DNA from: Xanthomonas vasicola
Lineage (GTDB): Bacteria > Pseudomonadota > Gammaproteobacteria > Xanthomonadales > Xanthomonadaceae
Assembly: GCF_000772705.2 (NCBI RefSeq)
Contig: NZ_JSBW02000002.1
Coordinates: 124,001 to 188,000 of the forward strand
Direction: 5' to 3'
Length of the DNA: 64,000 nucleotides
In this document: positions 7,175-24,169 of the stretch, in pieces
How the letters are laid out: each line of letters opens with the position of its first letter
Numbering within the stretch: the stretch's first letter is position 1
Notes under the pieces: generated by a model
The model's input: the letters and a program-made list of their open reading frames with translations, nothing else
What the model was told of the DNA's origin: nothing
Database searches by the model: none
Translations under genes and position numbers: made by a program

Positions 7175-9586
7175 TCATGCGCGTCCCTTGTATTCGTTGA
7201 ACGCGCCGCGGAACCCGACCACTTCGGTGCCCAGCCATGACGATTCGGTCTGGTCATCCGGGCACGCTGCATTGCCCAGCAGCAGGAATCCATGCGGGCC
7301 GTGACTGGTCTGCTCGATGAGGTAGCGCTTGCGCGCGCGATCCGGATGCGTGATGCCGCGTTTGCGCACCAGCGCGTTGATGAACTTGGGCGACGGCGCC
7401 GGCTTCACGCCCTCGCGGCCGCACCAGACCTTGTAGACCTCGTACCACTCTTTCGACGGCGCCGGCCGCGGCTTCAAGCCAGGGATGTCCTGGCCGTACA
7501 ACTCGTCCAGGAAGCGCTGTGGGCTGTCCTGCCCCAGGTTGATCAGCTCGGCTTTGGCAGCGGTCATCGGTGGATTGGTGCCATTGGTGAAGTCGCCCAG
7601 GTCGACCTGCAGCAAGTGGTGGTGCAGCGCTGCGGTGCCGCCGGCGCGGATCTCTGCCAGCACCTCCTGGTAGAACTCGGCCGGCAGCTTGTCCGGCGTC
7701 CAGATCACGGCATGCCGGCGGTCATCTTCCTCGAGCACAACCGGCATCGCCTCGTTCGACAGGAACACTAGGTTGGCGTGGTTGTCTTCTTCGTAGGCCT
7801 GGATGTTCTTCGGGTTAATGCGGATGCGGTCGCCGGTGATCAGCGCCTTCAGCTTGTTCTTGAGGTGGTACACCTCGGTGCGCGCCACCACTTCGTCCGC
7901 CAGCAAGAACAGCTTGCGGCTGGCCCAGTCGTTGAACTTGTCCTCCAGCGCGGACTGGTCCAGCACGCGGCCGTATTCGCCGAACAGCTTCATGTACTCG
8001 TCGAAGAACATGTTCTTGCCGGTGCCTTGCGGCCCGTGAATCACGATCGTCGATTTCATCTTGGCGCCCGGGTGCTGCAGCGGGTAGGCCAGCCACTTGA
8101 TCACCCAGTCGTAGAGCATGCGCTGGTTGGCTTCGTTGCCGCACATGTGCCACAGCAGCTGCAGCAGCTTGTCGCAGGTGCCCTCCTGCGGCACGGTCGG
8201 CCAGCCCGCGAATAGATTGCAGGTGATGCCGGGCTTGCAGCCGGATGGGTCGAAGTCCACCTCTTGCACACGCACGATGGCGCGCTGCGGGCTCTCAAGC
8301 CATGCGCGGTGCAGCTCGCGCCGCACGCAGGCATCGCGCATGTCGCCCAGCGCCACAAGCATGTGCTCCTGGTGATCGAACACCGTGCCGCCCTGCCCGT
8401 ACACCAACGCAAAACGACTCAACAGTGCATCGATGCTGTCGATCGGCTTGAGGAGTGCCTTCCCCGCGCCCCCGGTGCTGGGGATGGAAGCGGCGCGTTT
8501 TTCCACCGGTGCCCGCCACGATAGCTCCGTGATGCGGGCCTCCACCTGCGCGCGCACCACGTGCAGGCCTTCGGCCAGGTGCAGATCATTGAAGTCGCTG
8601 ACCTTGCGACCCTGGCCGATGTAGTTGGCACGGCGCGTGGCCTCATCGGCGAAAACCGGTAATAGCGCAGCACCGCGAACATCCAGTGCCGCGGCGCTGG
8701 CGCCGAGCATGCCGGCGTTCTCCGCCCTGTGGTCTTCACCGCAGGTGGGGCACGCCTTCGGGTGATCGGAGAGCACCAGGCGCGACTTGCACACGCGGCA
8801 CTTCTGCAGCACGTCGTCATCGCCACAGATCAGCACCTTGGTGCTGCGGTAACGCTTCGCCAGCGCGCTGGCCACCGGCATCAGGTTGCCCGCGTCGAAC
8901 GCCACGGCCACCGGATAGCCGGTAGCCATGTGCAGACTCGCCGCCGTGGCATAGCCCTCTGCCACCAGCAATATCCACTGCGGCGTGCCGCCGATCAGGT
9001 GGAAGTGCCCACGCTTGGCCAGGCCGGCAGGCCAGAACTCCTTCACCGGCTTGCGCTGCTGGTCGGCCTGCTTGGCGGTCCGCAGCAGCTGCAACCCGTG
9101 GATGGCGCCATTGCCATCGAGCAGCGGCACAACGGCAATTCCCGATCCGCCGTAGCGCAGGCCAAAGCCTTGCACGCCCTTGGCGGCGAGGTAGTCGGAT
9201 TCGCCGTCGTGCAGGGCCTTGCCCCATGCCCGGGTGGCACGTTCGGCAGCGCGGCGGTTCTCGTCCTGCCGCGCGGCTTCTGCGCGGCGGCGGTCTTCCG
9301 CCAGCCGGCGCTTCAATGCCTCACGCTGCTCCGCGGTAAATTCGCTATCGCGCTTGCGCAACTCCACCTTGATGGCGCCGTTGTCGTTGCCGCGCCAGAT
9401 GCCGTAGGTGCCAACAATCAGCACATCCGTGCCGTTGGTGTGCAGCTCGTGCAGCACGTACCAACCGCGTCGCTCGCGCGAGCCTTCGACTTTGCAGCGG
9501 ACCATACGGCCGCTCGCATCAAGACCGTCGAGGATCAGACCCGCGTCGCGCAGCTGGCCAAGCACATCATCGTAATTCGCCAGCAT
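7175..9586 (-). CDS. Phage primase-helicase (toprim plus SF3-type helicase)
   Basis: This 803-residue replication protein has a toprim region near residues 200-260 (VAEGYATAASLHMATGYPVAVAFDAGN as the acidic core, ending GDDD). It also has a four-cysteine zinc motif (CRVC and CPTC) at about 265-285, and a C-terminal helicase with Walker A GPQGTGKN near residue 525 and acidic LLADEV downstream. This fusion, as in P4 alpha and DUF5906-type proteins, would prime and unwind phage DNA. The start codon follows the upstream gene's stop without a gap (TGAATG). The repeat cluster lies immediately after its stop. Confidence 0.9.
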   Translation of the reverse strand: MLANYDDVLGQLRDAGLILDGLDASGRMVRCKVEGSRERRGWYVLHELHTNGTDVLIVGTYGIWRGNDNGAIKVELRKRDSEFTAEQREALKRRLAEDRRRAEAARQDENRRAAERATRAWGKALHDGESDYLAAKGVQGFGLRYGGSGIAVVPLLDGNGAIHGLQLLRTAKQADQQRKPVKEFWPAGLAKRGHFHLIGGTPQWILLVAEGYATAASLHMATGYPVAVAFDAGNLMPVASALAKRYRSTKVLICGDDDVLQKCRVCKSRLVLSDHPKACPTCGEDHRAENAGMLGASAAALDVRGAALLPVFADEATRRANYIGQGRKVSDFNDLHLAEGLHVVRAQVEARITELSWRAPVEKRAASIPSTGGAGKALLKPIDSIDALLSRFALVYGQGGTVFDHQEHMLVALGDMRDACVRRELHRAWLESPQRAIVRVQEVDFDPSGCKPGITCNLFAGWPTVPQEGTCDKLLQLLWHMCGNEANQRMLYDWVIKWLAYPLQHPGAKMKSTIVIHGPQGTGKNMFFDEYMKLFGEYGRVLDQSALEDKFNDWASRKLFLLADEVVARTEVYHLKNKLKALITGDRIRINPKNIQAYEEDNHANLVFLSNEAMPVVLEEDDRRHAVIWTPDKLPAEFYQEVLAEIRAGGTAALHHHLLQVDLGDFTNGTNPPMTAAKAELINLGQDSPQRFLDELYGQDIPGLKPRPAPSKEWYEVYKVWCGREGVKPAPSPKFINALVRKRGITHPDRARKRYLIEQTSHGPHGFLLLGNAACPDDQTESSWLGTEVVGFRGAFNEYKGRA

Positions 9587-9952
9587 TCAGTAACTTCCAG
9601 CCGCGCTATCTACCAAGGGAACGGGGTTCGAATTACCCGCATCGGGGGTCGGCCAGGAGGACCCATCGCCCGGAGCTGAACGCCTTGTCCGCTCGTTCAG
9701 ATTCAGCGCCTCGCCATGCGCGCGCGCCCTTTCCGCCGCTTCCCGGGGAGATGGGGCGCAGGGCAGCGGCAACACGCCTTGCGCGTGCGCGCCTGCGGTA
9801 TCGGCATGGCGCAACCGCTCGCGCTCGGCCAACGCGTCATCGCCAGCCAAACCAGGTGCATCGCTGTAGAGCAGGCGCAACGCTTCGGCAACGTGTTGCT
9901 GCGCGGCGGGGCTCAAGGTGCGGCGGATGTGGGAGGCGCGGTTGGTCGTCAT
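9587..9952 (-). CDS. Small phage protein of unknown function
   Basis: This 121-residue product starts at MTTNRASHIRRTL. The frame is open further upstream to 10039, but this ATG overlaps the CII-like gene's stop region and sits in the regular overlap pattern of the operon. The N-terminal half (LSPAAQQHVAEALRLLYSD) is helical and the rest is polar and Pro-rich with no recognised motif. It abuts the primase-helicase start, so a role in replication is possible from position alone. Confidence 0.6.
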   Translation of the reverse strand: MTTNRASHIRRTLSPAAQQHVAEALRLLYSDAPGLAGDDALAERERLRHADTAGAHAQGVLPLPCAPSPREAAERARAHGEALNLNERTRRSAPGDGSSWPTPDAGNSNPVPLVDSAAGSY

Positions 9953-9953
9953 G

Positions 9954-10484
9954 TCATGCACGCTTACGGCCCTTGGCTGCCGCGCGGCGCACGTTACGCT
10001 CCAGGCGGTGGCACATCGTGCGGATCGCCTGCAGCTCATCCACCATCAAGTCGGCTTCCTGCAGCGACAGATGCGCGTCGTCCAGCGCTTCGAGCGCAAC
10101 ACCAGACAGGCGCCCCGCGTGCTTGGCAACGTGCAGCAGCTTGGCTTGCATCGCGGCCACTTCATCCGGCCAGCCGTTCTCCGGTGCGGGCGGTACGAAA
10201 TCCATGGCCAGATCGAATTGCGCGCCCAGTGATTGAATCCAGCACGTCGCCTGCGCCTGCCCGGCGCTCAGCTCCTGCATCCACTCAGTGAGCATCTCCG
10301 CCATCTCCATCGACAGCGATTCGCCCTCCAAGCCCCGCAGCTTCTTGCGCAGCGATTCTGCGGCGATGGCCTTGCCGCGACGCTCTGTCAGGTAGGCGGC
10401 GGCCGCACGCACATTCCCCGGCATCTGCGACACCGCGTTGTATAGCGCGTCGCGCCAATAGATATCTGAGCGTTGGCACGTCAT
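9954..10484 (-). CDS. CII-like phage regulatory protein
   Basis: This 176-residue protein resembles the phage regulatory CII family (CP76). It begins with IYWRDALYNAVSQMPGNVRAAAAYLTERRGK, then AESLRKKLRGLEGESLSMEMAEMLTEWMQE, the helix-turn-helix-like part that in this family recognises DNA. The remainder is helical. It lies early in the leftward operon after Cro, the position where lambdoid phages encode CII. Overlaps of a few bases on both sides show it is co-translated with its neighbours. The family call is from motif pattern and position. Confidence 0.6.
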   Translation of the reverse strand: MTCQRSDIYWRDALYNAVSQMPGNVRAAAAYLTERRGKAIAAESLRKKLRGLEGESLSMEMAEMLTEWMQELSAGQAQATCWIQSLGAQFDLAMDFVPPAPENGWPDEVAAMQAKLLHVAKHAGRLSGVALEALDDAHLSLQEADLMVDELQAIRTMCHRLERNVRRAAAKGRKRA

Positions 10485-10813
10485 CGCGCGACACCCTGAA
10501 ACTTCGTGCAGTTCATCGTGGTGGCCGCCCGGCTGGACGACGCACCATGTGCGTCATGCTCACCACCACCCCACTCCTTAGGTTCACCGCCCTCCGACGC
10601 TACGAGGTCTGCACTGGCATTGGTGATGTTGTCGCTGTCTTCTTTGTTGCCGAGCAAACCGGAGCAGAACGCGAACAGTCCCGCCGCAGTCAGGGCGATC
10701 GCAGCGACATTGCGTACAAGCCCCGGAATGGTTGAGTCCGCCGACGCCTGCGCACCCTGCTCCCATCGCCGACGCGCGACATCGAGCGCCGACTCTTGGC
10801 TAGGCTTACGCAT
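10481..10813 (-). CDS. Small membrane protein of unknown function
   Basis: This 110-residue product starts at MRKPSQESALDVARRRWEQG. The ATG at 10813 has a GGGAGGG ribosome site, whereas the longer frame to 10861 does not. Residues about 32-50 (VRNVAAIALTAAGLFAFCSG) form one membrane helix, and the C-terminal half is polar and Gly/Ser-rich. It overlaps the CII-like gene by four bases. No family is recognised. Confidence 0.6.
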   Translation of the reverse strand: MRKPSQESALDVARRRWEQGAQASADSTIPGLVRNVAAIALTAAGLFAFCSGLLGNKEDSDNITNASADLVASEGGEPKEWGGGEHDAHGASSSRAATTMNCTKFQGVAR

Positions 10814-10881: not shown

Positions 10882-11142
10882 ATGGACGACGACGTAAAAC
10901 AGCGATTGAACGAAATTCTGGCTATCATGAAATCGCAGAACGATTTGCAAGTAGAGTTCAAGGACCAAATTGCCGCAGCGCATGTGCTGCTAATCGGTAT
11001 TATTCGGGCATTCGCGGACACGCCAGGATTCAAAGAAAATGTAGAGCGAACGATCTTGGAGATCGAAGCGGGTACGATCCAGCCCGGAGCAAAAAAGCAG
11101 ATTGCGGAAATCACTCGTCGCGCCCTTTACAGACACGAGTAA
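10882..11142 (+). CDS. Small protein of unknown function, opposite to early operon
   Basis: This 86-residue protein starts at MDDDVKQRLNEILAIMKSQ behind a strong AGGAGGG ribosome site. It is almost entirely helical, with one moderately hydrophobic stretch (AAHVLLIGIIRAFAD, about residues 29-43). It is on the plus strand while its neighbours are leftward, and its 3' end overlaps the 3' end of the convergent gene at 11111. The base composition is more A/T-rich than its surroundings, suggesting separate acquisition. No function can be assigned. Confidence 0.6.
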   Translation: MDDDVKQRLNEILAIMKSQNDLQVEFKDQIAAAHVLLIGIIRAFADTPGFKENVERTILEIEAGTIQPGAKKQIAEITRRALYRHE

Positions 11143-11323
11143 AACCATTCACTCGGCAATTGGCGTCTAACACGACAGGATTGGACGCCTCCGAGGGATG
11201 TATTGAACCTCTGAGAGCGGCAATCTCAGCATCAATTGCGTCCCACCTCGCCTTCTCATTTACCGTTTGGCGATTGAGCCAGTTGCGAACCCAAAGTCTT
11301 GGATTCCAGCTATCAGGCAACAT
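11111..11323 (-). CDS. Small phage protein, third gene of leftward immunity operon
   Basis: This 70-residue product starts at MLPDSWNPRLWVRNWLN. The ATG overlaps the end of the preceding gene by eleven bases. It is polar and mostly helical (EKARWDAIDAEIAALRGS) without a recognised motif. Its last 32 bases overlap the convergent small gene on the plus strand, which would make the two transcripts antisense to each other. Confidence 0.5.
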   Translation of the reverse strand: MLPDSWNPRLWVRNWLNRQTVNEKARWDAIDAEIAALRGSIHPSEASNPVVLDANCRVNGFTRVCKGRDE

Positions 11324-11507
11324 CGGCCACCTCCAGAAAGTTGAGCGACCAGCCCACCCGGCGGCGGCGCTCGGTGAGCGCTGCCCAGTCATCGGCGGTC
11401 AGGCACAGATCGGCGATATCGCCGTTGTTGTGGATCGGCAGGCCCACGAGCGTGGCGAGCTCGCCCGCACTCAGGGCGTCATCCAGCGGCGTGACGTGAC
11501 GAGACAT
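11313..11507 (-). CDS. Small phage protein, second gene of leftward immunity operon
   Basis: This 64-residue product, MSRHVTPLDDALSAGELATLVG onward, shares one base between its start and the Cro-like stop (TGATG), which implies translational coupling. Its sequence (ALSAGELATLVGLPIHNNGDIADLCLTADDWAALTERRRR) is acidic then basic, with no recognised domain. Genes in this place in lambdoid phages are often early regulators or anti-repressors, but nothing in the sequence confirms that. Confidence 0.55.
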   Translation of the reverse strand: MSRHVTPLDDALSAGELATLVGLPIHNNGDIADLCLTADDWAALTERRRRVGWSLNFLEVADVA

Positions 11508-11746
11508 CAAGCCACCTCCTGCACGTTGCCTGCCGGGCCGAAAATGTCCGGACGAAGATCGGTGCGGCGTATCGAACCGTTCGATATCCGTTCGATCAAC
11601 GCGCACCGCTCTGCAGGCACCTTCACCACGCCGGTCTCCCACTGAGAAACGATTCCTTGCGTTGCAGAGGAACCTGCGTCCGTAAGCAGCGCAGCGAACG
11701 CGGCCTGCGACAGTCCTACCTCTCGGCGATATGCGGCAATGTCCAT
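11507..11746 (-). CDS. YdaS/Cro-like repressor
   Basis: This 79-residue DNA-binding protein has a helix-turn-helix over MDIAAYRREVGLSQAAFAALL and GIVSQWETGVVKV, the YdaS/Cro pattern. It would compete with the divergent CI-type repressor for the shared operators and so set the lytic course. An in-frame ATG at 11752 adds two residues. The promoter at 11753-11780 places the predicted transcription start at or next to the ATG at 11746, so the message may have no leader. It heads the leftward operon. Confidence 0.8.
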   Translation of the reverse strand: MDIAAYRREVGLSQAAFAALLTDAGSSATQGIVSQWETGVVKVPAERCALIERISNGSIRRTDLRPDIFGPAGNVQEVA

Positions 11747-11752
11747 GCCCAA

Positions 11753-11780
11753 ATATTAGCGCCACTCATCCACATGTCAA
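11753..11780 (-). promoter_or_regulatory. Leftward early promoter (Cro side)
   Basis: Reading leftward, TTGACA at 11780-11775 is followed after 16 bases by TAATAT at 11758-11753, close to the sigma-70 consensus. One operator covers the -10 element and a second touches the -35 element, so repressor binding would block polymerase. The predicted start of transcription falls at about 11746, the YdaS-like ATG. Confidence 0.75.
11755..11769. promoter_or_regulatory. Repressor operator 1 (over -10 of leftward promoter)
   Basis: ATTAG-CGCCA-CTCAT is a 15-bp site with five-base arms and a five-base centre, one mismatch from the palindrome ATTAG-N5-CTAAT shared by all five sites in the prophage. Confidence 0.7.
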
Positions 11781-11793
11781 TAGTGCCGCTGAT
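11779..11793. promoter_or_regulatory. Repressor operator 2 (at -35 of leftward promoter)
   Basis: AATAG-TGCCG-CTGAT is the weakest of the five sites, with one mismatch in each arm. It lies 24 bp from operator 1 (centre to centre) and overlaps the end of the -35 hexamer. Confidence 0.6.
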
Positions 11794-11804
11794 GGAAAGC
11801 TGCA

Positions 11805-12557
11805 ATGTCCTCGATTAGCGTTACTAATATGGAATCCAGCCGACGCGCCAAACCCACCATCGCTGACGCTGAAGCGGCCGAGCGCCTGAAGACAGCTTGG
11901 TCGGAGCGCGCACGTGAACGCGGGATCACACAAGACAAGATGGCGGAGGAACTGGGGATTACCCAGGGCGCTGTCAGCCAATATCTCAATGGCAAGATCC
12001 CGATGAACTATCGGACGTTGATGGCGTTCTGCCAGGCACTTGGGATAGACGCTTGCGATATCCGCACCGATCTGCCCGAGCAACGCCTCGTCAGCCACGC
12101 TGCTTCAGACGACTCTGACTGGACTGCCGTGACCGGCTACTCCCAGGCGGTAGGCCTAGGCGCTTCCGGCGCAGAAGCCACGGAGTACGCTGAGACCCAC
12201 AGTCTCCACTTCAAGAAGACCAGCCTGCGCCGCCGGGGCATCCTCGGTCGGCCGCTGGCGGTGTACTACGGCAAGGGCGACAGCATGGAACCGGCTATCA
12301 CCGACGGCGATGCCATCCTGTTCGACACATCCGACACCCGCATTGTGGATGGCGTGATGTACCTGATCCAGGTGCACGGCGCCGCCAATCCCGAGTACTA
12401 CGTCAAGCGCGCCGAGGTACTGGATGGCACGGTGTACTTCCGCAGCGACAACCCGCACGGCGACCACGACTGGCGCAAGCCCAAGCGCATGGACTCACAA
12501 CGCCAGCCCATCACCGTGGTCGGCCGCGTTCACTGGATAGGCGGCTGGGCCGACTAA
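11805..12557 (+). CDS. CI-type repressor with S24 self-cleavage domain
   Basis: This is the prophage maintenance repressor, 250 residues. The N-terminal helix-turn-helix reads ITQDKMAEELGITQGAVSQYLNG (about residues 41-63). A linker leads to the LexA-like S24 domain, with the catalytic serine in GKGDSMEP and the catalytic lysine in YYVKRAEV, so SOS-induced self-cleavage is expected. It is divergent from the Cro-like gene across three operators. Two starts are possible: ATG 11805 with a GGAAAG site, or ATG 11829 (MESSRRAK), which leaves operator 3 outside the gene. The product is followed closely by the HipA-like gene on the same strand. Confidence 0.88.
   Translation: MSSISVTNMESSRRAKPTIADAEAAERLKTAWSERARERGITQDKMAEELGITQGAVSQYLNGKIPMNYRTLMAFCQALGIDACDIRTDLPEQRLVSHAASDDSDWTAVTGYSQAVGLGASGAEATEYAETHSLHFKKTSLRRRGILGRPLAVYYGKGDSMEPAITDGDAILFDTSDTRIVDGVMYLIQVHGAANPEYYVKRAEVLDGTVYFRSDNPHGDHDWRKPKRMDSQRQPITVVGRVHWIGGWAD
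11814..11828. promoter_or_regulatory. Repressor operator 3 (at the repressor start)
   Basis: ATTAG-CGTTA-CTAAT has perfect arms. It ends one base before the ATG at 11829 and lies inside the reading frame if translation begins at 11805. This position suits autoregulation of the repressor and favours the shorter start. Confidence 0.7.
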
Positions 12558-12579
12558 TGATTGAGGGAGCCACAAGGAC

Positions 12580-13329
12580 GTGACGGGTCTAGCCAAGCAA
12601 CCGGTCTGCATCGAAGAAATCCAGGGAAGAACACAACAAGGTGCTACCCGGCCATTCCTGTGCCGTGGCGATGATGGCTTGCTCTACTACGTCAAAGGGG
12701 TCGGTGCAAACCGGCGCAGCCTCATCTGCGAGTGGATGGCTGGCAGGCTTGCAACCGGATTCGGCCTCAACATTCCCCAGTTCGAGATCGCTTATGTGCC
12801 GCCAGGGCTGGCTGACCTGCATCCCGAAGGCCGTGATTTAGGATCGGGCCCCGTCTTCGCATCGCGGGTTGCCCCCAACGCTAATGAGATCGTCTTTCTG
12901 GAGGCGACCCGCGTGCCTCGGGACGTGCGGCGGGACGTAATCGCGTTCGACTGGTGGATCCGCAATGGTGATCGCTCGCTGACAGCGAAGGGTGGAAATC
13001 CCAATCTTCTGTGGGACGCTGGAAACAGTGAGCTGGTGGTGATCGACCACAACCTGGCGTTCGATCAAGACTTCGACGCTGACGCATTCCTTGCGACGCA
13101 CATCTTCCAAGCTGAATTTCCTGCGTTACGCGCCGATCTCGTACTCATGGCAGAATATGCTGCTCGAATGAAAGCCACGCTGGAGTTGTGGGACCATGCT
13201 TGGCGTTCGGTTCCCGACGAATGGCTGTTCCACGACGACGAGCAGACTGTTTCGACTGACTTCGACCCTACCGCCAGTGCTGCTTTGCTGGCACGCTGCC
13301 ACACCGAGGACCTGTGGAGGCTCCCATGA
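12580..13329 (+). CDS. HipA-like kinase-fold protein (HipA_2 type)
   Basis: This 249-residue protein begins at a GTG behind a GAGGGAG site. It resembles the compact HipA-like domain that is usually found beside DUF3037. An N-terminal lysine in LYYVKGVGANRRSLICEW could contact ATP. The segment FDWWIRNGDRSL followed by GNPNLLWD and VIDHNLAFD carries the Asp/Asn pattern of the HipA catalytic and metal sites. HipA proteins phosphorylate translation factors and cause dormancy, but the target of this short type is not known to me. It is 22 bp downstream of the repressor and overlaps the DUF3037 gene (ATGA), so it should be expressed in the lysogen. Confidence 0.75.
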   Translation: MTGLAKQPVCIEEIQGRTQQGATRPFLCRGDDGLLYYVKGVGANRRSLICEWMAGRLATGFGLNIPQFEIAYVPPGLADLHPEGRDLGSGPVFASRVAPNANEIVFLEATRVPRDVRRDVIAFDWWIRNGDRSLTAKGGNPNLLWDAGNSELVVIDHNLAFDQDFDADAFLATHIFQAEFPALRADLVLMAEYAARMKATLELWDHAWRSVPDEWLFHDDEQTVSTDFDPTASAALLARCHTEDLWRLP

Positions 13330-14150
13330 ATATGCGAGTCCCTTGCCAATACGCCATTGTCCAATTCCTGCCCTATCCGGAAACCGGGGAGTTTGCGAAC
13401 GTGGGCGTGGTGTTGGCCTGTCCTCAGATGCGCTACCTGGGAGTCCGCATCGCGCCCCACAGACGTACCAAGCGGGTCACCGATTTCTTCGAGGGACTGC
13501 AGGCTCGCGTGTATCGCGAGGCGCTCCGATACATCGAGGGCGACCTGAATCGGTTTAGTGACGCGGTGGCCCATGGACAGATCCCGGCAAACCTGGCGTT
13601 CGATGAAATCACACGTCCACGCGAGGCACTGATTCGATATGGTGCCGCGCGCACCATCATGAGCAACGGCCACCCGAACGACACATTGCAGCAGTTGTAC
13701 GACAGGTTTGTCGAACGTGACTTCGCCACGAAGGAGTATCACGAGACAGCGATGCGCCAGCGAGTGGACGACTTGCTAGCTAACGCCCATCTGCGCAGCT
13801 ACTTCGCGGAGGCGGCGGTAGGCGATGACAGCTACCCCGTGAAGTTTCCTTTCGTCTCCATCGCTTCGGAAGCGCCGCAGATCGTAATCAAGCCGCTCAA
13901 CCTGACCCAGGACGAGCCGTGCAAGATCTTCGAACACGGCAATACGTGGCTTGGTCGTGTCATCAGGCTACGCAAGCACGGGCAGCTACCTAAGACGGTG
14001 CTTTTTGCTATCGATCAGGCGGCCGAGGGTGAGAAGCGGATCAAGGCAGCAGCCGAGGTGACCGCTGACCTGAGATCTGCAGGAGCGATTGTCGAGCCGC
14101 TCCGCCACACCGATGCGATCCTGAGGGTGGCAAAGCAGGCAAAGCCGTAA
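13326..14150 (+). CDS. DUF3037 family protein, partner of HipA-like kinase
   Basis: This 274-residue protein begins MNMRVPCQYAIVQFLPYPETGEFANVGVVL, the characteristic opening of DUF3037, with the conserved ERANVGVV-like strand (here EFANVGVVLACP). The rest includes helical regions and a C-terminal alpha/beta part (TVLFAIDQAAEGEKRIKAAAEV). Its start overlaps the kinase stop by four bases, which suggests equal expression and a complex. The function of the pair is unknown to me. An antitoxin-like or regulatory partnership is an inference from the layout. Confidence 0.75.
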   Translation: MNMRVPCQYAIVQFLPYPETGEFANVGVVLACPQMRYLGVRIAPHRRTKRVTDFFEGLQARVYREALRYIEGDLNRFSDAVAHGQIPANLAFDEITRPREALIRYGAARTIMSNGHPNDTLQQLYDRFVERDFATKEYHETAMRQRVDDLLANAHLRSYFAEAAVGDDSYPVKFPFVSIASEAPQIVIKPLNLTQDEPCKIFEHGNTWLGRVIRLRKHGQLPKTVLFAIDQAAEGEKRIKAAAEVTADLRSAGAIVEPLRHTDAILRVAKQAKP

Positions 14151-14159
14151 TTCCGATGC

Positions 14160-14184
14160 AAACCCTGCTCCGGCTGGGTTTTCT
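14160..14184 (+). terminator. Probable terminator after the repressor/HipA/DUF3037 operon
   Basis: AAACCC at 14160-14165 pairs with GGGTTT at 14176-14181 around a GC-rich ten-base loop, followed by more T residues. It starts ten bases after the DUF3037 stop, as expected for the end of the lysogenic transcript. Confidence 0.45.
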
Positions 14185-14195
14185 ATGCGGGGAGC

Positions 14196-14354
14196 ATGCA
14201 ATTCAAGCTCCAAATTACTACTCTGGAATGCGCTTTCCCATTGCCGGCTGTGGCGGTCCAGCAGTCGCGCTTTGAGAGCACCGCCGAGGACTGGATGGCC
14301 AGCCACGCCAACGACGCGAACGACCCCAGCCCTGGGATGATCGAAGCCGAGTAA
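14196..14354 (+). CDS. Small protein of unknown function (52 aa)
   Basis: The reading frame MQFKLQITTLECAFPLPAVA onward ends in an acidic helix (GMIEAE). It has a GGGGAG ribosome site and is free of rare features, so it is probably translated. It lies between the probable terminator and the rightward promoter. No function can be proposed. Confidence 0.5.
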   Translation: MQFKLQITTLECAFPLPAVAVQQSRFESTAEDWMASHANDANDPSPGMIEAE

Positions 14355-14399
14355 AACGCCGACCTTTTCGACACAGTTTGGACATCTAGCTGGCAATAA

Positions 14400-14414
14400 A
14401 TTAGCGCCCCTATT
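14400..14414. promoter_or_regulatory. Repressor operator 4 (at -35 of rightward promoter)
   Basis: ATTAG-CGCCC-CTATT has one mismatch in the right arm. The final TT forms the start of the -35 hexamer TTGACT, exactly as operator 2 relates to the leftward promoter. Confidence 0.7.
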
Positions 14415-14441
14415 GACTTATAGTATTAGCGCCCCTAATCT
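14413..14441 (+). promoter_or_regulatory. Rightward early promoter
   Basis: TTGACT at 14413-14418 and TAATCT at 14436-14441 are separated by 17 bases. Operators 4 and 5 cover both elements. Transcription should begin near 14448 and read the whole early operon to about 20.8 kb. Confidence 0.75.
14425..14439. promoter_or_regulatory. Repressor operator 5 (over -10 of rightward promoter)
   Basis: ATTAG-CGCCC-CTAAT has perfect arms and lies 25 bp from operator 4, one base more than the spacing of operators 1 and 2, which matches the one-base longer promoter spacer. Confidence 0.75.
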
Positions 14442-14447
14442 TGTCCG

Positions 14448-14550
14448 GTCAGCTCTCCAGCTGACGGGCGACCGGCGGGTCGTCCCTGTCGGTCAGCCCT
14501 CCCCCTCTGCCCGGTAGCAGGCCCCTCCCCTGGCCTAATTGACCCGCCGG
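14448..14550 (+). promoter_or_regulatory. Structured leader of the rightward early transcript
   Basis: A seven-base-pair hairpin (GTCAGCT, loop CTCC, AGCTGAC) occupies 14448-14465, at the predicted 5' end. CCGGCGGGTC at 14472-14481 pairs perfectly with GACCCGCCGG at 14541-14550. Structured leaders in this place in lambdoid phages can act in antitermination, and that role is a guess here. Confidence 0.5.
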
Positions 14551-14576
14551 CGCCCTCCTTCTTCGGAGAGAGCGCC

Positions 14577-14816
14577 ATGTCCCGGAATGCAGACCTCGAG
14601 CTCGACGAGCTCACCGCAGCAGCGACGAGCGGCCCCGCCACTCGTCGCTGCCTCAGCGCCTGTGCTGCCGCAGACCACGCTCACGCTAGTGCGCTCAAGC
14701 GCCGCGGCATGTCAAAGGGTCCAAAACGCTACCCGACGCGCAGCGATCGCATAGAACTGAGGGGCCTGCGAGCCGAAGCAGCCAGCCGCGACTTCGTCCG
14801 GGAGCTGCGCGCATGA
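14577..14816 (+). CDS. Early phage protein of unknown function (79 aa)
   Basis: This is the first gene of the rightward early operon, MSRNADLELDELTAAATSGP onward, with a GGAGAGAG ribosome site. It is basic in the second half (KRRGMSKGPKRYPTRSDR) and ends in a helix that overlaps the next start (ATGA). There are no recognised motifs. The basic segment could bind nucleic acid. Confidence 0.6.
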   Translation: MSRNADLELDELTAAATSGPATRRCLSACAAADHAHASALKRRGMSKGPKRYPTRSDRIELRGLRAEAASRDFVRELRA

Positions 14817-15025
14817 GCGCTGTTGCAGCTTCGTTGACCGCAGAAGATCTGACGGCCGCAATCATCTGGGCCGAGGACGCTATCCGCGAGGACGCGCACA
14901 CCCTCAAAACGCTAGGCGACTACGCCTCGGCGAGCTATGCAACGTGCCTGCAAAAGAGGATCGCCAAGCGTAGGGAGCAGTTGGAGCGCTTCCGCTCTGC
15001 ACTCGCAGAGGTTGGTGCCGCATGA
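14813..15025 (+). CDS. Early phage protein of unknown function (70 aa)
   Basis: MSAVAASLTAEDLTAAIIWAEDA onward is a wholly helical protein with a basic central helix (LQKRIAKRREQLERFRS). Both ends overlap neighbouring genes by four bases, so it is translated from the common message. No family is recognised. Confidence 0.6.
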   Translation: MSAVAASLTAEDLTAAIIWAEDAIREDAHTLKTLGDYASASYATCLQKRIAKRREQLERFRSALAEVGAA

Positions 15026-15294
15026 ACGAGTTTCCCTCTGCCGGCTTCCGGCCGGGCCGTGGTCAAGGCACCTTGCTGCGGCTGTGCGTCAAACGCGATT
15101 CGGTGAGCGCTGCGCTGTATGGCACAGACCGCGGCAGAGAGCTTGCGGTGACTGTCTGCCGCCTCGGCGACGTGCGCCGTATGGCCGGCGCGCTGCAACT
15201 TGGCCAGACCGCGTACACCGCAGGCGATGACGCTCTGCAGGCTATGTGCGAGTGGATGGCGGCGCACGGCGTGCCGGTACGGGTGACTCCATGA
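15022..15294 (+). CDS. Early phage protein of unknown function (90 aa)
   Basis: MNEFPSAGFRPGRGQGTLLR onward has alternating strands and one helix near the end (GDDALQAMCEWMAAHGV). It overlaps both neighbours by four bases. There is no recognised domain. Confidence 0.6.
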   Translation: MNEFPSAGFRPGRGQGTLLRLCVKRDSVSAALYGTDRGRELAVTVCRLGDVRRMAGALQLGQTAYTAGDDALQAMCEWMAAHGVPVRVTP

Positions 15295-15569
15295 GCGACC
15301 ATCCATTGGAAGCCTTCTTCCCCACCGGGCATGCCAGCCAAACACTTGCGCTGATGATCTGCAGCGACTGGATCTGGGCTGGCCTGTACGACGGCAAGGT
15401 CACGCCATCTCTAGACGGCTGCGCAGTTGCGCCGTGCCTGCGCGCACGCGCCACCACCCGCCATCTGTCCATTGGCCCCGACTCCTTCGCACTGGCACCG
15501 CGCGTCCTGCTGCGGGCCACACGCTGGTTGCGCCAGCACGGCGTGCATGTCCAGGAGCAGCGCGCATGA
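15291..15569 (+). CDS. Early phage protein of unknown function (92 aa)
   Basis: The ATG at 15291 overlaps the preceding stop. The longer frame from 15246 would overlap the upstream gene by 49 bases and is rejected. The product, MSDHPLEAFFPTGHASQTLA onward, includes DWIWAGLYDGKVTPSLDG and a C-terminal helix. It has the same order of elements as the previous gene (a strand pair, then a helix before the C-terminus), so the two may be distant duplicates. No function is known. Confidence 0.55.
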   Translation: MSDHPLEAFFPTGHASQTLALMICSDWIWAGLYDGKVTPSLDGCAVAPCLRARATTRHLSIGPDSFALAPRVLLRATRWLRQHGVHVQEQRA

Positions 15570-15754
15570 GCCGCCTTTATGAGCGTGCCATCGCCCTTGG
15601 CTGGACATTGGTGGCCATCGCCGCCGCCGTCTGTGTGCCGCTGCGCCTGGCCGAAATCCACGCCGCGCAACGCAGCGCAGTTGCACAGCCGGCAGTGGTC
15701 ACAGAGCAAAAGGCGTCCCTTCCCCACGTGCGGCTGGCGCGAGCAGAGGACTGA
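15566..15754 (+). CDS. Small single-span membrane protein (62 aa)
   Basis: MSRLYERAIALGWTLVAIAA begins a protein with one membrane helix at about residues 8-27, followed by a polar tail. It overlaps the preceding gene by four bases, and the next gene begins one base after its stop. The role is unknown. Short single-span proteins in phage early regions are often exclusion or lysis-timing factors, but this is only a possibility. Confidence 0.55.
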   Translation: MSRLYERAIALGWTLVAIAAAVCVPLRLAEIHAAQRSAVAQPAVVTEQKASLPHVRLARAED

Positions 15755-15755
15755 C

Positions 15756-16055
15756 ATGCGCCAGGAAGCCAAACCATTACCGCCCACTGTTTCTACATGC
15801 CAGCCAGGCCATCGCCCGCAGCTGGTCACCACGCACGGCGCACCGCATCGCTATCGCATTGGCGGCCCCGCACCGACCACGTTCCACATCGAGTGCTGCC
15901 GCTGCGGCAAGGCCACCGCGCCCAGCCCCAGCCGCGCGCTCACCGAAAGCCGCTGGACCGAACCCACCGGCCAGCATCGCATCCCGCTTTCCCACCTAAG
16001 CCGAGCACGCGAGCAGCTATTCGCCGTGCTGGCGCTTGCGGCCCACGCCGCCTGA
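15756..16055 (+). CDS. Early phage protein with Cys motif (99 aa)
   Basis: MRQEAKPLPPTVSTCQPGHR onward contains ECCRCGK near residue 50, with a histidine two residues before (FHIECCRC). Together with the upstream CQPGH it could hold a metal ion. The C-terminal half is helical. It is one base from the preceding gene and about eleven bases from the next. No family is recognised. Confidence 0.55.
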   Translation: MRQEAKPLPPTVSTCQPGHRPQLVTTHGAPHRYRIGGPAPTTFHIECCRCGKATAPSPSRALTESRWTEPTGQHRIPLSHLSRAREQLFAVLALAAHAA

Positions 16056-17268: not shown

Positions 17269-17424
17269 ATGACCAATCTCCATCCGAACGACAGGCTCGC
17301 GGCGCTGGATTGGGCGCTGAGCCGAGCGCGGGAAGCAGCCGCCAGCGATCAGCTTATCCACCTCACACACTTGCCAGCTCTCCAACATTTGCGCGATCAA
17401 GCGCATGAGGTGCGCGGTGGCTGA
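17269..17424 (+). CDS. Small early phage protein (51 aa)
   Basis: MTNLHPNDRLAALDWALSRA onward is helical and has a strong CAGGAGG ribosome site seven to ten bases ahead. Its last 20 bases overlap the cytosine methylase start, so the two are probably coupled. No function is known. Confidence 0.55.
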   Translation: MTNLHPNDRLAALDWALSRAREAAASDQLIHLTHLPALQHLRDQAHEVRGG

Positions 17425-19498
17425 CGGCTCGCACTCTTTCAACTTTCCCGCTCCGCAGGTTTCGTACCTGCGCCCGGGCGAGATCGTGGTCGACCTGTTC
17501 GCTGGCGGCGGCGGCGCGAGCGAGGCGCTCAAGCAGGCGCTGGGCGTCGATCCCGCGCTGGCCTACAACCACGACGAGTGGGCGATCGGCATGCATGCGG
17601 CCAACCACCCGCTGACGATCCACCACCGCGAGGACATCTGGCACGCCGACCCACGCAAGGACGTCGCCGGCCGGTCAATCGGTTGGTTCCATGCATCGCC
17701 GGACTGCACGCACTTCAGCCAGGCCAAGGGTGGCCAACCGCGCAACCACAAGACCCGCGCGCTCTCATGGGTCGCGCTGAAGTGGATCGGTCAGCTGCTA
17801 CGTGCCGACTTGCGAGACGGCACGAACACCGCGCCGCGCATTCTGTCGTTGGAAAACGTGTGGCAGATCCTGACCTGGGGTCCGCTGGTGGCCAAGCGCT
17901 GCAAGATGACCGGCCGCGTCCTGAAGATGGGCGGCACCGTGGCGGCCCGCGGCGAGCGGGTTCCGGTGGCGAACCAGCAGCTGGTGCCGGACAAGCGCCA
18001 CAGCGGCCGCACCTGGCGCCAGTTCGTCGCAGCGCTGGAGTCGAAGGGCTACCGCGTGGAATGGCGCAAGCTGACGGCTAGCGACTATGGCGCCGGCACC
18101 AGTCACGAACGACTGTTCCTGCTGGCGCGCCGCGACGGCGAGCCGATCGTATGGCCGGCCCCGACACACGGCACCGCGCCCGGCCTGCCGCGCGTGCGCG
18201 CAGCCGACTGCTTGGACTTCTCCCTGCCCTGCCCGTCGATCTTCACCCGCAAACGCCCGCTGGCAGATGCCACGTTGCGCCGCATTGCCAAGGGCGTGAT
18301 GCGTCACGTGCTGCAGTCGGCCGACCCCTTCATCGTGCCGGCCACGCACCATGGCTCCGACTGCGTAAACGACGTGCGGGCGCCGCTGCCGACAATCACC
18401 GCAGCCCACCGCGGCGAGCTGATGCTCGTTGCGCCTGAGCTGGCGCCCTTCATCACCGAGCACTCGAATGCCAGCAATCAGCGCACGATGAGTGGTGACG
18501 AGCCGCTGCGCACGATCTGCGCCGGGGTTAAGGACGGGCATTTCTCGGCAGTCGCGCCGGTCCTGGCGAAGTTCCGCGGCGAGAGCGACGGGCGCGCGGT
18601 GACGCAGCCGGTGCCAACAATTACCGCCGGCGGCGCTCTGGGTCTAATTGCGCCGACGCTGGTGCAGACTGGCTACAGCGAGCGCGAAGGTCAGGCGCCG
18701 CGCGCACTGGTCCTGCAGCAGCCTCTCGGCACCATTGTCGCCGGCGGCGTGAAGCATGCGGTGGTTGCCCCGATCATGGTGCAGGCTGGCCATGGTGAGG
18801 GGCGCCCCGGCGGCGTGCAGCGCTGGGGTGCTGGTGGCAAAGATGCCCGTACACCTGTCGGCACTGTCACTGCCAGCGGCAGCGGCGGCCAAGCTGTCGC
18901 GTGTGCGTTCCTCGAGCAGGCAAACGGTGGCTTTTACGAAGGCGGCGGCCGCGATGCGCGTGAGCCAATGAGTACCATCACCGCGACAGGCAGCCAGCAG
19001 CAGCTCGCGACCGCGCACCTGATCACCATGCGCAAGAACCCACACGGACAGGATGCTGCCGACCCGCTGGGCACGGTGTGCGCCGGCGCCGTACACCACG
19101 GGATGATCGAGTGCACGCTGAGCGCCGAGCAGCAGGCCGGCGCGCTGAAGGTCGCCGCGTTCCTGGTGAAGTACTACGGCACTGGCATCGGCGTCGACCT
19201 GCGCGAGCCGCTGGATACCGCGACAACGCGCGATCGCATGGCGCTAGTAACGGTGGTGATCCAGGGCACGCCCTACGTCATCGTCGACATCGGCCTGCGC
19301 ATGCTCAAGCCGCACGAGCTGTTCCGCGCGCAGGGCTTCCCCACCGGCTACCGGATCACGCACACCGCTGACGGCCGGGCGATCAGCACCAGCGCCGCCG
19401 TGCGCATGTGCGGCAACAGCGTCAGCCCACCGCCACTGGTCGCGCTGGCGCGCGCCAACCTCGACAAGAAGCCGCTGCCACTGCAGGTGGCAGCATGA
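17405..19498 (+). CDS. C5-cytosine DNA methyltransferase with internal repeats
   Basis: This 697-residue methylase carries motif I (DLFAGGGGAS, about residue 30), a catalytic loop SPDCTHFSQAKGG (motif IV with Cys, but PDC where most enzymes have PPC), motif VI LENVWQ, and a late motif VIII-like GTSHERLFLLARR. The C-terminal motifs IX-X are LKPHELFRAQGFP and MCGNSVSPPP. Between VIII and IX, residues of about 325-615 hold seven to eight copies of a unit with core P-L-x-T-I-x-A-G followed by a hydrophobic AP-x-L stretch, in place of a normal target-recognition domain. It probably protects phage DNA against host restriction. It overlaps the adenine methylase (ATGA). Confidence 0.9.
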   Translation: MRCAVADGSHSFNFPAPQVSYLRPGEIVVDLFAGGGGASEALKQALGVDPALAYNHDEWAIGMHAANHPLTIHHREDIWHADPRKDVAGRSIGWFHASPDCTHFSQAKGGQPRNHKTRALSWVALKWIGQLLRADLRDGTNTAPRILSLENVWQILTWGPLVAKRCKMTGRVLKMGGTVAARGERVPVANQQLVPDKRHSGRTWRQFVAALESKGYRVEWRKLTASDYGAGTSHERLFLLARRDGEPIVWPAPTHGTAPGLPRVRAADCLDFSLPCPSIFTRKRPLADATLRRIAKGVMRHVLQSADPFIVPATHHGSDCVNDVRAPLPTITAAHRGELMLVAPELAPFITEHSNASNQRTMSGDEPLRTICAGVKDGHFSAVAPVLAKFRGESDGRAVTQPVPTITAGGALGLIAPTLVQTGYSEREGQAPRALVLQQPLGTIVAGGVKHAVVAPIMVQAGHGEGRPGGVQRWGAGGKDARTPVGTVTASGSGGQAVACAFLEQANGGFYEGGGRDAREPMSTITATGSQQQLATAHLITMRKNPHGQDAADPLGTVCAGAVHHGMIECTLSAEQQAGALKVAAFLVKYYGTGIGVDLREPLDTATTRDRMALVTVVIQGTPYVIVDIGLRMLKPHELFRAQGFPTGYRITHTADGRAISTSAAVRMCGNSVSPPPLVALARANLDKKPLPLQVAA
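18381..19240 (+). repeat. Tandem protein-coding repeats in the cytosine methylase
   Basis: Degenerate units of roughly 35-45 codons each contain a core such as APLPTITAAH, EPLRTICAG, QPVPTITAGG, QPLGTIVAGG, TPVGTVTASG, EPMSTITATG and DPLGTVCAG. Conservation is at the protein level only, so the duplications are old. Confidence 0.7.
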
Positions 19499-20346
19499 TC
19501 ACGTCGCCTGCGTTCCGCTACCACGGTGGGAAGTTCAGGCTGTCGCCATGGGTGCAGCGCCACCTGCCGCCGCACCGGACGTATGTCGAGCCTTTCGGTG
19601 GCGCGGCCGGCGTGCTGCTGACTAAGCCACGCAGCTATGCGGAGGTTTACAACGACCTCGACGGCGACGTGGTGAACTTCTTCCGCGTGCTGCAGTCACC
19701 TGCCGATCGCGATCGTCTGGTCGAACTGTGCCAGCTGACGCCGTACGCCCGCGCTGAGTTCGACATTGCTTGGGATCCGACCGACGACGCTGTCGAGCGT
19801 GCACGCCGCCTGCTCATCCGCGCCCAGATGGGTTTCGGATCCGCAGGTGCCACCAAGGGCAAAACCGGCTTCCGGATCGATTCACAGCGTGCCTACGGCA
19901 CTGCGCAGCATCTGTGGAATCGATTCCCCGCTGGCCTGGCCGAAATAGCGGAGCGCTTCGCCGGCGTGCTGATCGAAAACCGATCCGCGATCGATGTAAT
20001 GCAGCAACACGATACGCCGCAGACGCTTCATTACGTGGATCCGCCGTACGTCCATAGCACGCGCGTCATGCAAGCAGGCAAAGCCGGCTACTACCGCCAC
20101 GAGATGACCGAGGCGGATCACAAGCAGCTGCTAGATTGCATTGGCAGCCTTACGGGCATGGTGGTGGTGTCTGGCTACCGCACTGACCTCTACGACTCCG
20201 CTCTCGCAGGCTGGCGCCGCGAGGAGACACAGGCGCGGATCAGCGCAGGCCGTGGCTGCAAGCTCCGGACTGAATGCCTGTGGATCAGTCCCGCATGCGC
20301 ATTAACAGGGCACCAGCATGGCCTGCCGCTGGGAGACGTCGCATGA
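19495..20346 (+). CDS. Dam-type N6-adenine DNA methyltransferase
   Basis: This 283-residue D12-class methylase has an AdoMet-binding start FRYHGGKFRL, EPFGGAAGVLL (motif I, about 33-43) and catalytic DPPY in HYVDPPYVHS near residue 180. The ATG at 19495 overlaps the cytosine methylase stop. The longer frame from 19408 is rejected. With the preceding gene it forms a dual methylation unit expected to mask phage DNA or affect expression. The GATC specificity of Dam relatives cannot be confirmed from sequence. Confidence 0.88.
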   Translation: MITSPAFRYHGGKFRLSPWVQRHLPPHRTYVEPFGGAAGVLLTKPRSYAEVYNDLDGDVVNFFRVLQSPADRDRLVELCQLTPYARAEFDIAWDPTDDAVERARRLLIRAQMGFGSAGATKGKTGFRIDSQRAYGTAQHLWNRFPAGLAEIAERFAGVLIENRSAIDVMQQHDTPQTLHYVDPPYVHSTRVMQAGKAGYYRHEMTEADHKQLLDCIGSLTGMVVVSGYRTDLYDSALAGWRREETQARISAGRGCKLRTECLWISPACALTGHQHGLPLGDVA

Positions 20347-20630
20347 CCCTCACCCTCCTCGGCCGCGGCCTGGACGCCATCCTGCAGCACGACCTCACCG
20401 GCATGCCGCGCCAGATCACCAACGCCGCGCGCCTGCACCGCTACGAGCGCGCCCAGCAGCTGCGCCGCGCCACCCAGTCGCCCGAAGCCCGCGAGATCGA
20501 ACAGCTCCGCGAGCAGTTCGGCCACAACTACCAGACCGCCTGGCGCAACGGCCAGCGCCCAGACCTCACACAGCTACCGCAGCACTTCGCGGCGATCAAC
20601 AAGGAGCAGCAACATAATGGGCGCCGCTGA
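20343..20630 (+). CDS. Phage protein of unknown function (95 aa)
   Basis: MTLTLLGRGLDAILQHDLTG onward is a helical, basic protein with RYERAQQLRRATQSPEAREIEQLREQF in the middle. It begins within the adenine methylase stop (ATGA) and ends fourteen bases into the next gene. No family is recognised. Confidence 0.55.
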   Translation: MTLTLLGRGLDAILQHDLTGMPRQITNAARLHRYERAQQLRRATQSPEAREIEQLREQFGHNYQTAWRNGQRPDLTQLPQHFAAINKEQQHNGRR

Positions 20631-20838
20631 GCACTCAACTTTCTGGCTGCTATACGGCCACTACGGCCCGACGATGAGCGTCGAGCAGTTCCGGGCCGAG
20701 TTCATGCCCAAGCTGACCATGAAGACGTTGCAGAATTGGATCGCGCGGGGTGACGCACCCAAGCCAATCAATGGCGTTGTAGATGTGCGGGACGTTGCCA
20801 CTTGGTGGGACGGGCAGCGGAAACAGAAGACCGGGTAG
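20617..20838 (+). CDS. PrtN-like (pyocin activator family) regulator
   Basis: This 73-residue protein fits the small PrtN family. TFWLLYGHYGPTMSVEQFRAEF is followed by a helix-turn-helix KLTMKTLQNWIARGD and a final DVRDVATWWDGQ. PrtN activates late pyocin genes in Pseudomonas, and relatives in prophages lie at the end of early operons and may act as late activators or excisionase-like proteins. Here it is the last gene of the rightward operon. Which of these roles applies is not visible. Confidence 0.65.
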   Translation: MGAAEHSTFWLLYGHYGPTMSVEQFRAEFMPKLTMKTLQNWIARGDAPKPINGVVDVRDVATWWDGQRKQKTG

Positions 20839-20866
20839 GCCCAGAGGGCCTGGCTCGTTTCGGCCG

Positions 20867-21364
20867 TTACTTAGCCGCTTTAACCATATCTAACATGGCC
20901 TTGACAAGTTCAATTTGCGGAGTCGTTATGCCGGGATTGCGATTACCTTCGTCGTTATCTTGCTTCCCTGAACTAATCATCCGCACTAATGCGAGCGTCA
21001 AGGAGAGCGGCACCGCGGCCAGGATTACTAGAACTAGACCTGTCAGCAAGATGACGTGCCAGCCGGCACCGCGAGCGGATGCCAAGATAGCAAGCGAATT
21101 GTCATCAACTACGAAAAAAATGGCGATAGGCAACATGACAAGATAAGCCAAGGATGCAACGCCAACGGCATAGAACGCCCAACGACGAAACGAACGATGC
21201 GCTTCCTCGCTTAGCTCGTACTGATCTAGATAAACCTCGCGCTTCGCTTTGGGAGGCGCGGGCGAATTCGAGGAGCCTCTACCTTGTGCAGCCCCAGCAG
21301 CTTCTCGGGCTGCCGGGGCTATCTCCGGAAACGCTTTATCAGGCTCAGGCGGCGAATCGGTCAT
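20867..21364 (-). CDS. Two-helix membrane protein abutting Panacea gene; possible toxin
   Basis: This 165-residue protein has a Pro/Ala-rich cytoplasmic head (1-45), a conserved-looking YLDQYELSEEAHRSFRRWA stretch, and two membrane helices at about 63-86 and 101-127 with a short acidic loop (FVVDDNS), then a polar tail. It starts immediately after the Panacea stop (TAAATG, no gap), so the two are co-translated. Membrane proteins are one of several toxin classes found next to Panacea antitoxins, so a membrane-disrupting toxin is a reasonable but unproven reading. Its composition is more A/T-rich than the flanks. Confidence 0.65.
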   Translation of the reverse strand: MTDSPPEPDKAFPEIAPAAREAAGAAQGRGSSNSPAPPKAKREVYLDQYELSEEAHRSFRRWAFYAVGVASLAYLVMLPIAIFFVVDDNSLAILASARGAGWHVILLTGLVLVILAAVPLSLTLALVRMISSGKQDNDEGNRNPGITTPQIELVKAMLDMVKAAK

Positions 21365-21880
21365 TTATGCGACGCTCGCAGCATTTGCTGCTTGCGCCTT
21401 CATCTCCCTGATCTTTGCCTGGTAGTGCTCTTTGATCAGCGCATTGTCGATCGGAGCGAAGTACATGTTTCGACCGCCTTGCTGATGCCACGCGATCGAC
21501 CAAGGTGTCTCCTCCATGTGAGTCATGGCGGAAAGCTGCACACCACTGAATCCAGCATAGCTCTTCCAAACAGACTCCAGAAGGCTGGCTGCATTCGCGT
21601 CAACCTTCGTTTCCGACAGCCAGGGGAATGGGCTCGGGGACAATAGCCCCTGGACAGCACCACTACCAAATTGCCTAACACGGTCGTACAAGGACTTAAT
21701 CACAGGGCCGTACTTCCAAGCTTGCACCTGCTCGTTGATGAGCGGTTGACCCATGTAGCCAAGATGCCAGCCATGTGCGATGTACACCAACTTGATCAGT
21801 TGCATCGGCGTAAGCGCCCGTCCCTCTTGCGAGGCCTTTTCAAGGAAGTAATTCGCGATGGTGGAGGGCGAGTAGGCCAT
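21365..21880 (-). CDS. Panacea-domain (DUF4065) protein, probable antitoxin
   Basis: This 171-residue protein matches the DUF4065/Panacea family, which includes SocA. It opens with SPSTIANYFLEKASQEGRAL, then TPMQLIKLVYIAHGWHLGY, the family hallmark, AWKYGPVIKSLYDRV, and an ending motif around GVQLSAMTHMEETPW. Panacea proteins neutralise very different toxins encoded beside them. ATG 21880 carries a GGGAG ribosome site, and the longer frame to 22036 is rejected because family members begin here. It lies at the right end of the prophage, a usual site for defence cargo, and its partner follows without a gap. Confidence 0.85.
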   Translation of the reverse strand: MAYSPSTIANYFLEKASQEGRALTPMQLIKLVYIAHGWHLGYMGQPLINEQVQAWKYGPVIKSLYDRVRQFGSGAVQGLLSPSPFPWLSETKVDANAASLLESVWKSYAGFSGVQLSAMTHMEETPWSIAWHQQGGRNMYFAPIDNALIKEHYQAKIREMKAQAANAASVA

Positions 21881-22036
21881 GAGATGAGCTCCCGTCCGGA
21901 GGCAGTGCAGGATCTGGGAAAAAGGTCGAACGCGAATATCACACAATCCAGTCTCACAAATTGAGAGACAAACATAGTGCGGCTGCGACCACCGCAATAC
22001 CGTTACTGCACCAGGATTGTACCAATGGGTACGCAA

Positions 22037-24110: not shown

Positions 24111-24169
24111 GGGGATCTCCCGAAACTAACGACGACATCGCGGCGCAGACTGCGATGTCGTCGGGCGGA

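Follow-up and report, generated by a model that had tools for sequence, protein, structure and literature searches.

Paired operator arrays around the cI and HipAD genes of a predicted lambda-type immunity region in a Xanthomonas vasicola prophage

A stretch of 64,000 nucleotides (64 kb) of the 4.92-Mb genome of Xanthomonas vasicola (contig NZ_JSBW02000002.1, positions 124,001 to 188,000; referred to as the window, in whose coordinates all positions are given) contains a prophage in which the gene of a CI-like repressor, followed by those of a HipA-like kinase and a DUF3037 protein, lies between two arrays of one palindromic operator. We read this locus as a prophage immunity region of the lambda type, where CI would close two divergent early promoters, and put the probability of this reading at roughly 0.9, based on the sites, their geometry and conservation, their co-variation with the helix-turn-helix (HTH) of CI and the gene order. 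All five operators were found where the original prediction had placed them under the pattern ATTAG-N5-CTAAT. On the left, the first (11755..11769, one mismatch, matrix score 24.1) covers the -10 of the leftward promoter, which serves cro, the second (11779..11793, two mismatches, 19.8) ends in the -35 of that promoter and the third (11814..11828, exact match, 21.7) stands directly before the likely CI start codon; on the right, one site (14400..14414, one mismatch, 26.5) ends in the -35 of the rightward promoter and the other (14425..14439, exact match, with 27.3 the top score) covers its -10. The claimed spacings of 24 (11755/11779) and 25 bp (14400/14425) are correct, and so are the spacers of 16 bases in the leftward promoter (TTGACA-16-TAATAT, 11753..11780, minus strand, 10/12 in a consensus scan) and 17 bases in the rightward one (TTGACT-17-TAATCT, 14413..14441, plus strand). 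Calling the two promoters mirror images is apt for the operator overlap with -35 and -10 that they have in common, but not for the left array, with its third site at the CI start codon.

The loose pattern by itself is only moderately unusual, as ATTAG-N5-CTAAT with up to two mismatches matches the window 11 times against 4.67 expected, and 11 matches were reached in 1 of 100 shuffles; the strong part is the comparative evidence. A 17-bp matrix built from 90 sites of 18 relatives, with the window and its identical copy L011 excluded, gave its top ranks in the 64 kb to exactly the five sites (27.3-19.8), followed by a score of 9.5 (opposite-strand readings of the same five aside), and this matrix found no extra operator above background in the 64 kb. 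The refined pattern AWDAGYGBYVCTVWT has seven forward matches in the whole genome, five of which are the operators, and one reverse match, which is the site at 11755 read the other way; the reversed control gave 0. The two remaining places (C40 and C82) are non-prophage. Two other perfect genomic matches to ATTAG-N5-CTAAT (C32, C74), both within long reading frames, were put down to chance. The five sites could also be chance repeats in an AT-rich intergenic stretch, for which the merely twofold excess of the loose pattern in the window would speak; the matrix gap between 19.8 and 9.5, the conservation in 20 of 20 relatives described below and a control of 0 in 395 genomes make this explanation barely credible, and we consider the five-site observation confirmed by the sequence comparison. 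The claim of a complete regulon holds in so far as five sites stand in the 64 kb without a convincing sixth by the matrix, and no further; that CI binds them we infer. The flanks of the original pattern were also borne out, but its central five bases are not free, because AnnAGnGnnnCTnnT is kept without exception in 90/90 sites. It should be noted for this count that the right pair and the second left site were found by anchors fixing some of these letters, whereas the first and third left sites were placed at fixed distances, and that the central G was fixed by no anchor.

The relatives comprise 76 loci encoding a CI relative, on 6 genome contigs and 70 viral contigs; among those from the genome collection, the ones bearing a name belong to Stenotrophomonas and to one Xanthomonas strain. 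The match to CI extends from the N-terminus in 21 of the 76, including L011, while the other 20 consist of 18 loci in the HTH cluster of the window and two (L026, L030) in a neighbouring cluster with slightly different sites. All 20 keep both the left triplet, with spacings of exactly 24 and 35 bp and an ATG immediately after its third site, and the right pair, so that the palindrome does recur near the same genes. Including L011, the right pair is present in 21/21 loci at a distance of 25 bp, with one to three mismatches in total, and sits 470-2050 bp past the CI stop; the genes in between vary among relatives which keep both arrays. When the right-pair pattern alone (up to two mismatches) was searched in 395 genomes of the family, it was found in five, the own genome and four others, against 0 for the control. 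In all four, Cro and CI relatives (CI 43-74% identical) lie just upstream; one of them (G267/L092) is a Stenotrophomonas pavanii contig already present as L005, leaving three new loci. These data also bear on the idea that the right pair is the autoregulatory operator of the HipA/DUF3037 pair and not a CI site. Its position 250 bp after the DUF3037 gene would suit such a role, as would the AlphaFold3 model of DS-6B with DNA presented in the available portion of PMC13092281, but 17 of 20 relatives have the right pair in a locus that gives no HipA_2 match (tblastn) and, as described below, the pair changes with the CI HTH in one relative whose HipAD stays 95-97% identical, which renders the idea very improbable.

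To look beyond this operator type, we searched without a preset motif for a palindrome common to the region upstream of CI and to a downstream pair. Three of the 76 loci (L028, L036, L080) were too short and were dropped; among the 73 scorable relatives, a two-ended operator set was judged present in 65. A first pass, in which shuffles scored 27-34 and the found sets mostly 34-40, had misplaced many CI starts and was redone; the script failed on L015 and L027, missing or mis-calling them, but the explicit pattern shows their pair. Scores of 33-34 overlap the background (between-cluster pairs reach up to 36), and the weak single sets of L008, L040, L053 and L079 are less certain than the group result. 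The C-terminal domain of CI in the other loci is 57-93% identical to that of the window, and the HTH falls into 10 multi-member clusters and 5 singletons, with which the operator type goes: examples are ATTAGG-N5-CCTAAT, TATGG-n-AT-n-CCATA, TACGG-n-ATTCCGTA, TACAAC-N4-GTTGTA, GTCTAG-N4-CTAGAC and TAAAGC-N3-GCTTTA. About 12 HTH/operator pairings can be counted, namely the ten clusters (L008/L040/L079 being weak) together with L049 and L050. Scores of at least 34 between left and right arrays were reached by 82.7% of 630 ordered pairs within HTH clusters vs 5.0% of 4626 pairs between clusters, with mean cross-scores of 35.2 and 31.1, respectively, and 0 of 2000 label permutations scored as high; as several loci are near-duplicates and hence not independent, these figures express a strong tendency and are no calibrated probability. 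In relatives with another HTH the sites change at both ends together, and in most operator types the first right site runs into TTGAC, which is replaced by a related TTTACT, TTGTTG or TTGATT in the TAAAGC, TACAAC and ACAA types. Judged by these sequences, the specificity of the operators follows the HTH of the repressor at either array.

One relative, L029, offers a natural exchange. Compared with the window, its CI C-terminal domain is 93%, its HipA 95% and its DUF3037 protein 97% identical, and the DNA aligns at 90.4% over 12108-14259, which covers the C-terminal part of CI, HipA and DUF3037. Alignment is also found outside both arrays (11279-11506 at 86%, 14459-14818 at 85%), while most of the stretch with cro, left array and HTH, as well as 14260-14458 with the right array, stays unaligned: L029 carries a different HTH and, at both ends, its own other palindrome. 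As far as sequence comparison can tell, specificity thus differs in concert at two places around nearly unchanged cargo, the best evidence we have for one regulator serving the right pair as well as the left array. Together with the 20 of 20 relatives, this change at both ends with the HTH supports the original interpretation as the circuit of a CI-like repressor, which is silent on HipA/DUF3037 and on the likeness of the layout to that of lambda. The sites could instead be mainly operators of the Cro/YdaS-like protein, with CI binding elsewhere or weakly. Lambda Cro uses the same sites as CI, and here cro adjoins the left array and, in L029, has changed along with the CI HTH; the operator types go with the CI HTH clusters, which is no refutation, as Cro clusters were not compared likewise. 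We regard this explanation as unlikely and favour CI as the regulator of both arrays.

Several observations nevertheless weigh against the immunity circuit proposed here. As Cro changes along with CI in L029, this locus cannot tell the two apart as binder, and it is a mosaic in which 9914-10582, 10887-11278 and the part beyond 14818 also lack long-block alignment, which makes the swap of arrays and HTH one exchange among several. A convincing two-ended pair was judged absent in 8/73 relatives (L034, L041, L042, L043, L052, L054, L055, L072). The right, far array has two sites, unlike that of lambda with three, although we do not take three sites per array to be required of every lambda-like phage. 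The rightward -10, TAATCT, is poor, agreeing with TATAAT at 3/6 positions, and a clear -35/-10 of a CI promoter was not found.

The rightward promoter is weaker than the leftward one and was not called by the consensus scan; we assign it because of its conservation across loci. CT(A/G)TTGAC is kept in 21/21 loci, and the -35 region reads CTATTGAC in 19/21 and CTGTTGAC in L026 and L030, followed by CTAATCT in 21/21 (L011 included). The start of CI probably is 11829 rather than 11805, since the ATG directly follows the third left site in 20/20 relatives; the upstream ATG is missing in L026 and out of frame in L027. The ATG of cro (11746-11758 region) lies 6 nt past the -10 in the window and 6-7 nt past it in 18/21 loci; the letters of L014 and L030, mis-parsed by the script, also give 6-7 nt, and L027 has 9 nt. 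Because of this short distance, the cro message is probably leaderless.

In the lysogen, the CI-like repressor would occupy the three sites left of its own gene and the two sites 2.6 kb to the right, and at each end two bound dimers would lie over an early promoter, one on its -35 and the other on its -10. The leftward promoter would lead to cro, a CII-like gene, the primase and later terminase and portal genes, the rightward one to small early genes and methyltransferases. CI itself is probably made from a weak promoter within the left array; the centre of the second left site lies about 43 bp before the CI start codon, which is about where lambda's activating operator lies, and the third site, touching the start codon, is a likely site of negative feedback. 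The CI transcript most likely runs on through the HipA-like kinase and DUF3037 genes. With HipAD at lambda's rexAB position, the lysogen would possess a phage defence resembling a toxin-antitoxin system; the two arrays may also be joined by cooperative looping. The lambda immunity region has the order OL-rexB-rexA-cI-OR-cro. The locus resembles it in having a CI with HTH and S24 domain and a cro divergent from cI, which is followed by a CII-like gene and replication genes; in both, accessory genes separate cI from the far array, and the cI transcript has the same operator sites on either side, with one reaching into the -35 and another overlying the -10. Unlike in lambda, HipA/DUF3037 take the place of RexAB and cro is probably leaderless; N/nut were not identified at the locus, at which no search was aimed at them.

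Among the genes concerned, CI (11829..12557, plus strand; HTH_3 E 1e-9, Peptidase_S24 E 1e-11, phrog_35) has, with respect to RecA-stimulated self-cleavage, of which it may or may not be capable, the Ser (GDSM) and Lys (YYVKRA) conserved and S-G in the linker, where several of the relatives shown have A-G. It is followed on the same strand, still between the two early promoters, by the HipA-like kinase (HipA_2, PDC-M66A; 12580..13329; PF20613 E 2e-84, PADLOC PDC-M66A E 1.4e-9) and the DUF3037 protein (PDC-M66B, a HipD-like antitoxin candidate; 13326..14150; PF11236 E 8e-24, PDC-M66B E 1.3e-15), whose ATG overlaps the HipA stop. As the genes are adjacent and overlapping and both PADLOC models match, the pair is HipAD (PDC-M66), and by analogy it is a likely phage-defence, toxin-antitoxin-like pair. 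In the accessible part of PMC12548924, HipAD/DS-6 is described as a stand-alone defence, which is lost upon deletion of HipA, while deletion of DUF3037 is toxic; the sections available of PMC13092281 report that DS-6 loses defence when the predicted catalytic residue is mutated. A coliphage with HipAD at the rexAB position has been recorded before: the annotated order in E. coli phage PhiR5_1 is cII-cro / cI-HipA-HipD / Kil-Gam-Bet, with HipA-HipD in the same place after cI as here, and the far operators of this phage share the design in which the first right site runs into TTGAC. The HipA of the window is only 31-33% identical to that of PhiR5_1; the same idea is found here in another phage lineage.

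The slot between CI and the far array measures 52-2990 bp in 65 loci. Among these 65 slots, the HipAD pair is found in L011 (identical to the window), L013, L016, L029 and L065. A divergent HipA_2 and DUF3037 pair occupies the slot of L033 (L033:5605-7216), a prophage with another immunity type, and HipAD may for this reason have entered the slot more than once. PADLOC, run on 20 slot proteins including the two of the window, gave clear matches for HipAD, BstA (L025, E 7.6e-117), PDC-S42 (L051) and a PD-Lambda-5_B methyltransferase whose neighbour in L037 is an AAA ATPase; of the 20, 9 stayed without a match at E<=0.01 and the others had weak ones. The slot family seen most often, in 12 loci (L007, L017, L024, L026, L030, L032, L035, L048, L060, L061, L073, L074), consists of small proteins, two of which, on visual inspection, combine a coiled coil with a membrane helix; the member in L007 has no Pfam match above the cut-off. 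These proteins are candidate exclusion proteins. In prophage BTP1 the defence gene bstA likewise lies downstream of cI, as BstA occupies the slot in L025, and the portion of PMC8585504 at hand, citing Degnan 2007, already links the positions of BstA and rexAB and treats the cI-n region as a hotspot of mosaic diversity. That this region is a hotspot with defence genes is thus known, while the part of that account available makes no connection between the slot and flanking operator arrays or HTH exchanges. In P. putida, according to the excerpt available of PMC12894663, a CI-like repressor has a RexAB-type pair downstream of it.

On the minus strand, the cro-like gene (YdaS/Cro HTH by Pfam/PHROGs, 11507..11746; YdaS_toxin E 4e-13) heads a leftward operon with the CII-like activator gene (9954..10484; phrog_101, E 2e-20), the primase/replication gene (7175..9586; phrog_2249, E 3e-203) and terminase/portal genes. 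The last recognised phage gene, left of the window, encodes a protease-capsid protein, and the six leftward frames beyond it have zero Pfam matches. The rightward operon starts with a gene to which no function is assigned (14577..14816, plus strand; phrog_16412) and includes two DNA methyltransferases (17405-19498, 19408-20346). A small protein at 20617 has a weak PrtN-like match. At the right prophage end, a SocA/Panacea-domain protein (20867-22036; PF13274, E 1.4e-17) and its small neighbour, whose membrane-protein matches are weak and below the cut-off, look like a toxin-antitoxin pair. An integrase was not recognised on the right side among the frames listed or scanned (19400-24200 and L093); the completeness of the prophage is doubtful and it may be defective. 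Named phages match only 3% of the 4-kb region, in Stenotrophomonas phage S1 (two records).

A further feature is a hairpin which begins near the predicted +1 of the rightward transcript, in a structured leader (14442..14576, plus strand) for which the 138-nt stretch with the ATG has a minimum free energy of -65 kcal/mol (z -3.5). In 57 distinct rightward leaders, L015, L027 and L078 being left out, the mean z is -2.45 with 72% below -2, compared with -0.60 (16%) downstream and -0.30 (5%) upstream. An alignment of 33 leaders, chosen from 59 listed because they were alignable (the others have other stems, and the longer leader of the window is outside it), contains 11 pairs, 5 with two-sided changes, three of these being C-G to G-C in 12-13 sequences. 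In many relatives the hairpin occurs beside different operator types, and Rfam has zero matches at E<=1 in 11000-16000. By its sequence, the hairpin is a new-looking finding. We advance only tentatively, as a doubtful possibility, that it is an undescribed cis-acting RNA, conserved by compensatory changes and kept despite operator swaps, which controls the early operon, and that the CI-bracketed cassette is a modular unit. If so, the hairpin would act through antitermination, by protecting the mRNA or by masking the ribosome site, and the unit would combine an exchangeable operator/HTH code and exchangeable defence cargo with a fixed RNA start.

In a non-exhaustive search of the open-access literature, no paper on the operators of lambda-like prophages of Stenotrophomonas/Xanthomonas was found. 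The present analysis predicts a lambda-like switch in prophages of the Xanthomonas family, in which about 12 HTH/operator pairings stand on one common C-terminal domain; these pairings would be a ready data set for a repressor-operator code and for forecasts of exclusion among prophages. The slot that the arrays enclose would be a place to seek prophage defence genes, as it holds HipAD, BstA, PD-Lambda-5-like and many unknown genes in the 65 slots. The comparison of L029 with the window amounts to an experiment of nature: around a nearly unchanged defence cargo, two separate places differ in specificity. More generally, to judge from their sequences, related prophages have the layout in common and vary in their binding-site code and cargo genes.

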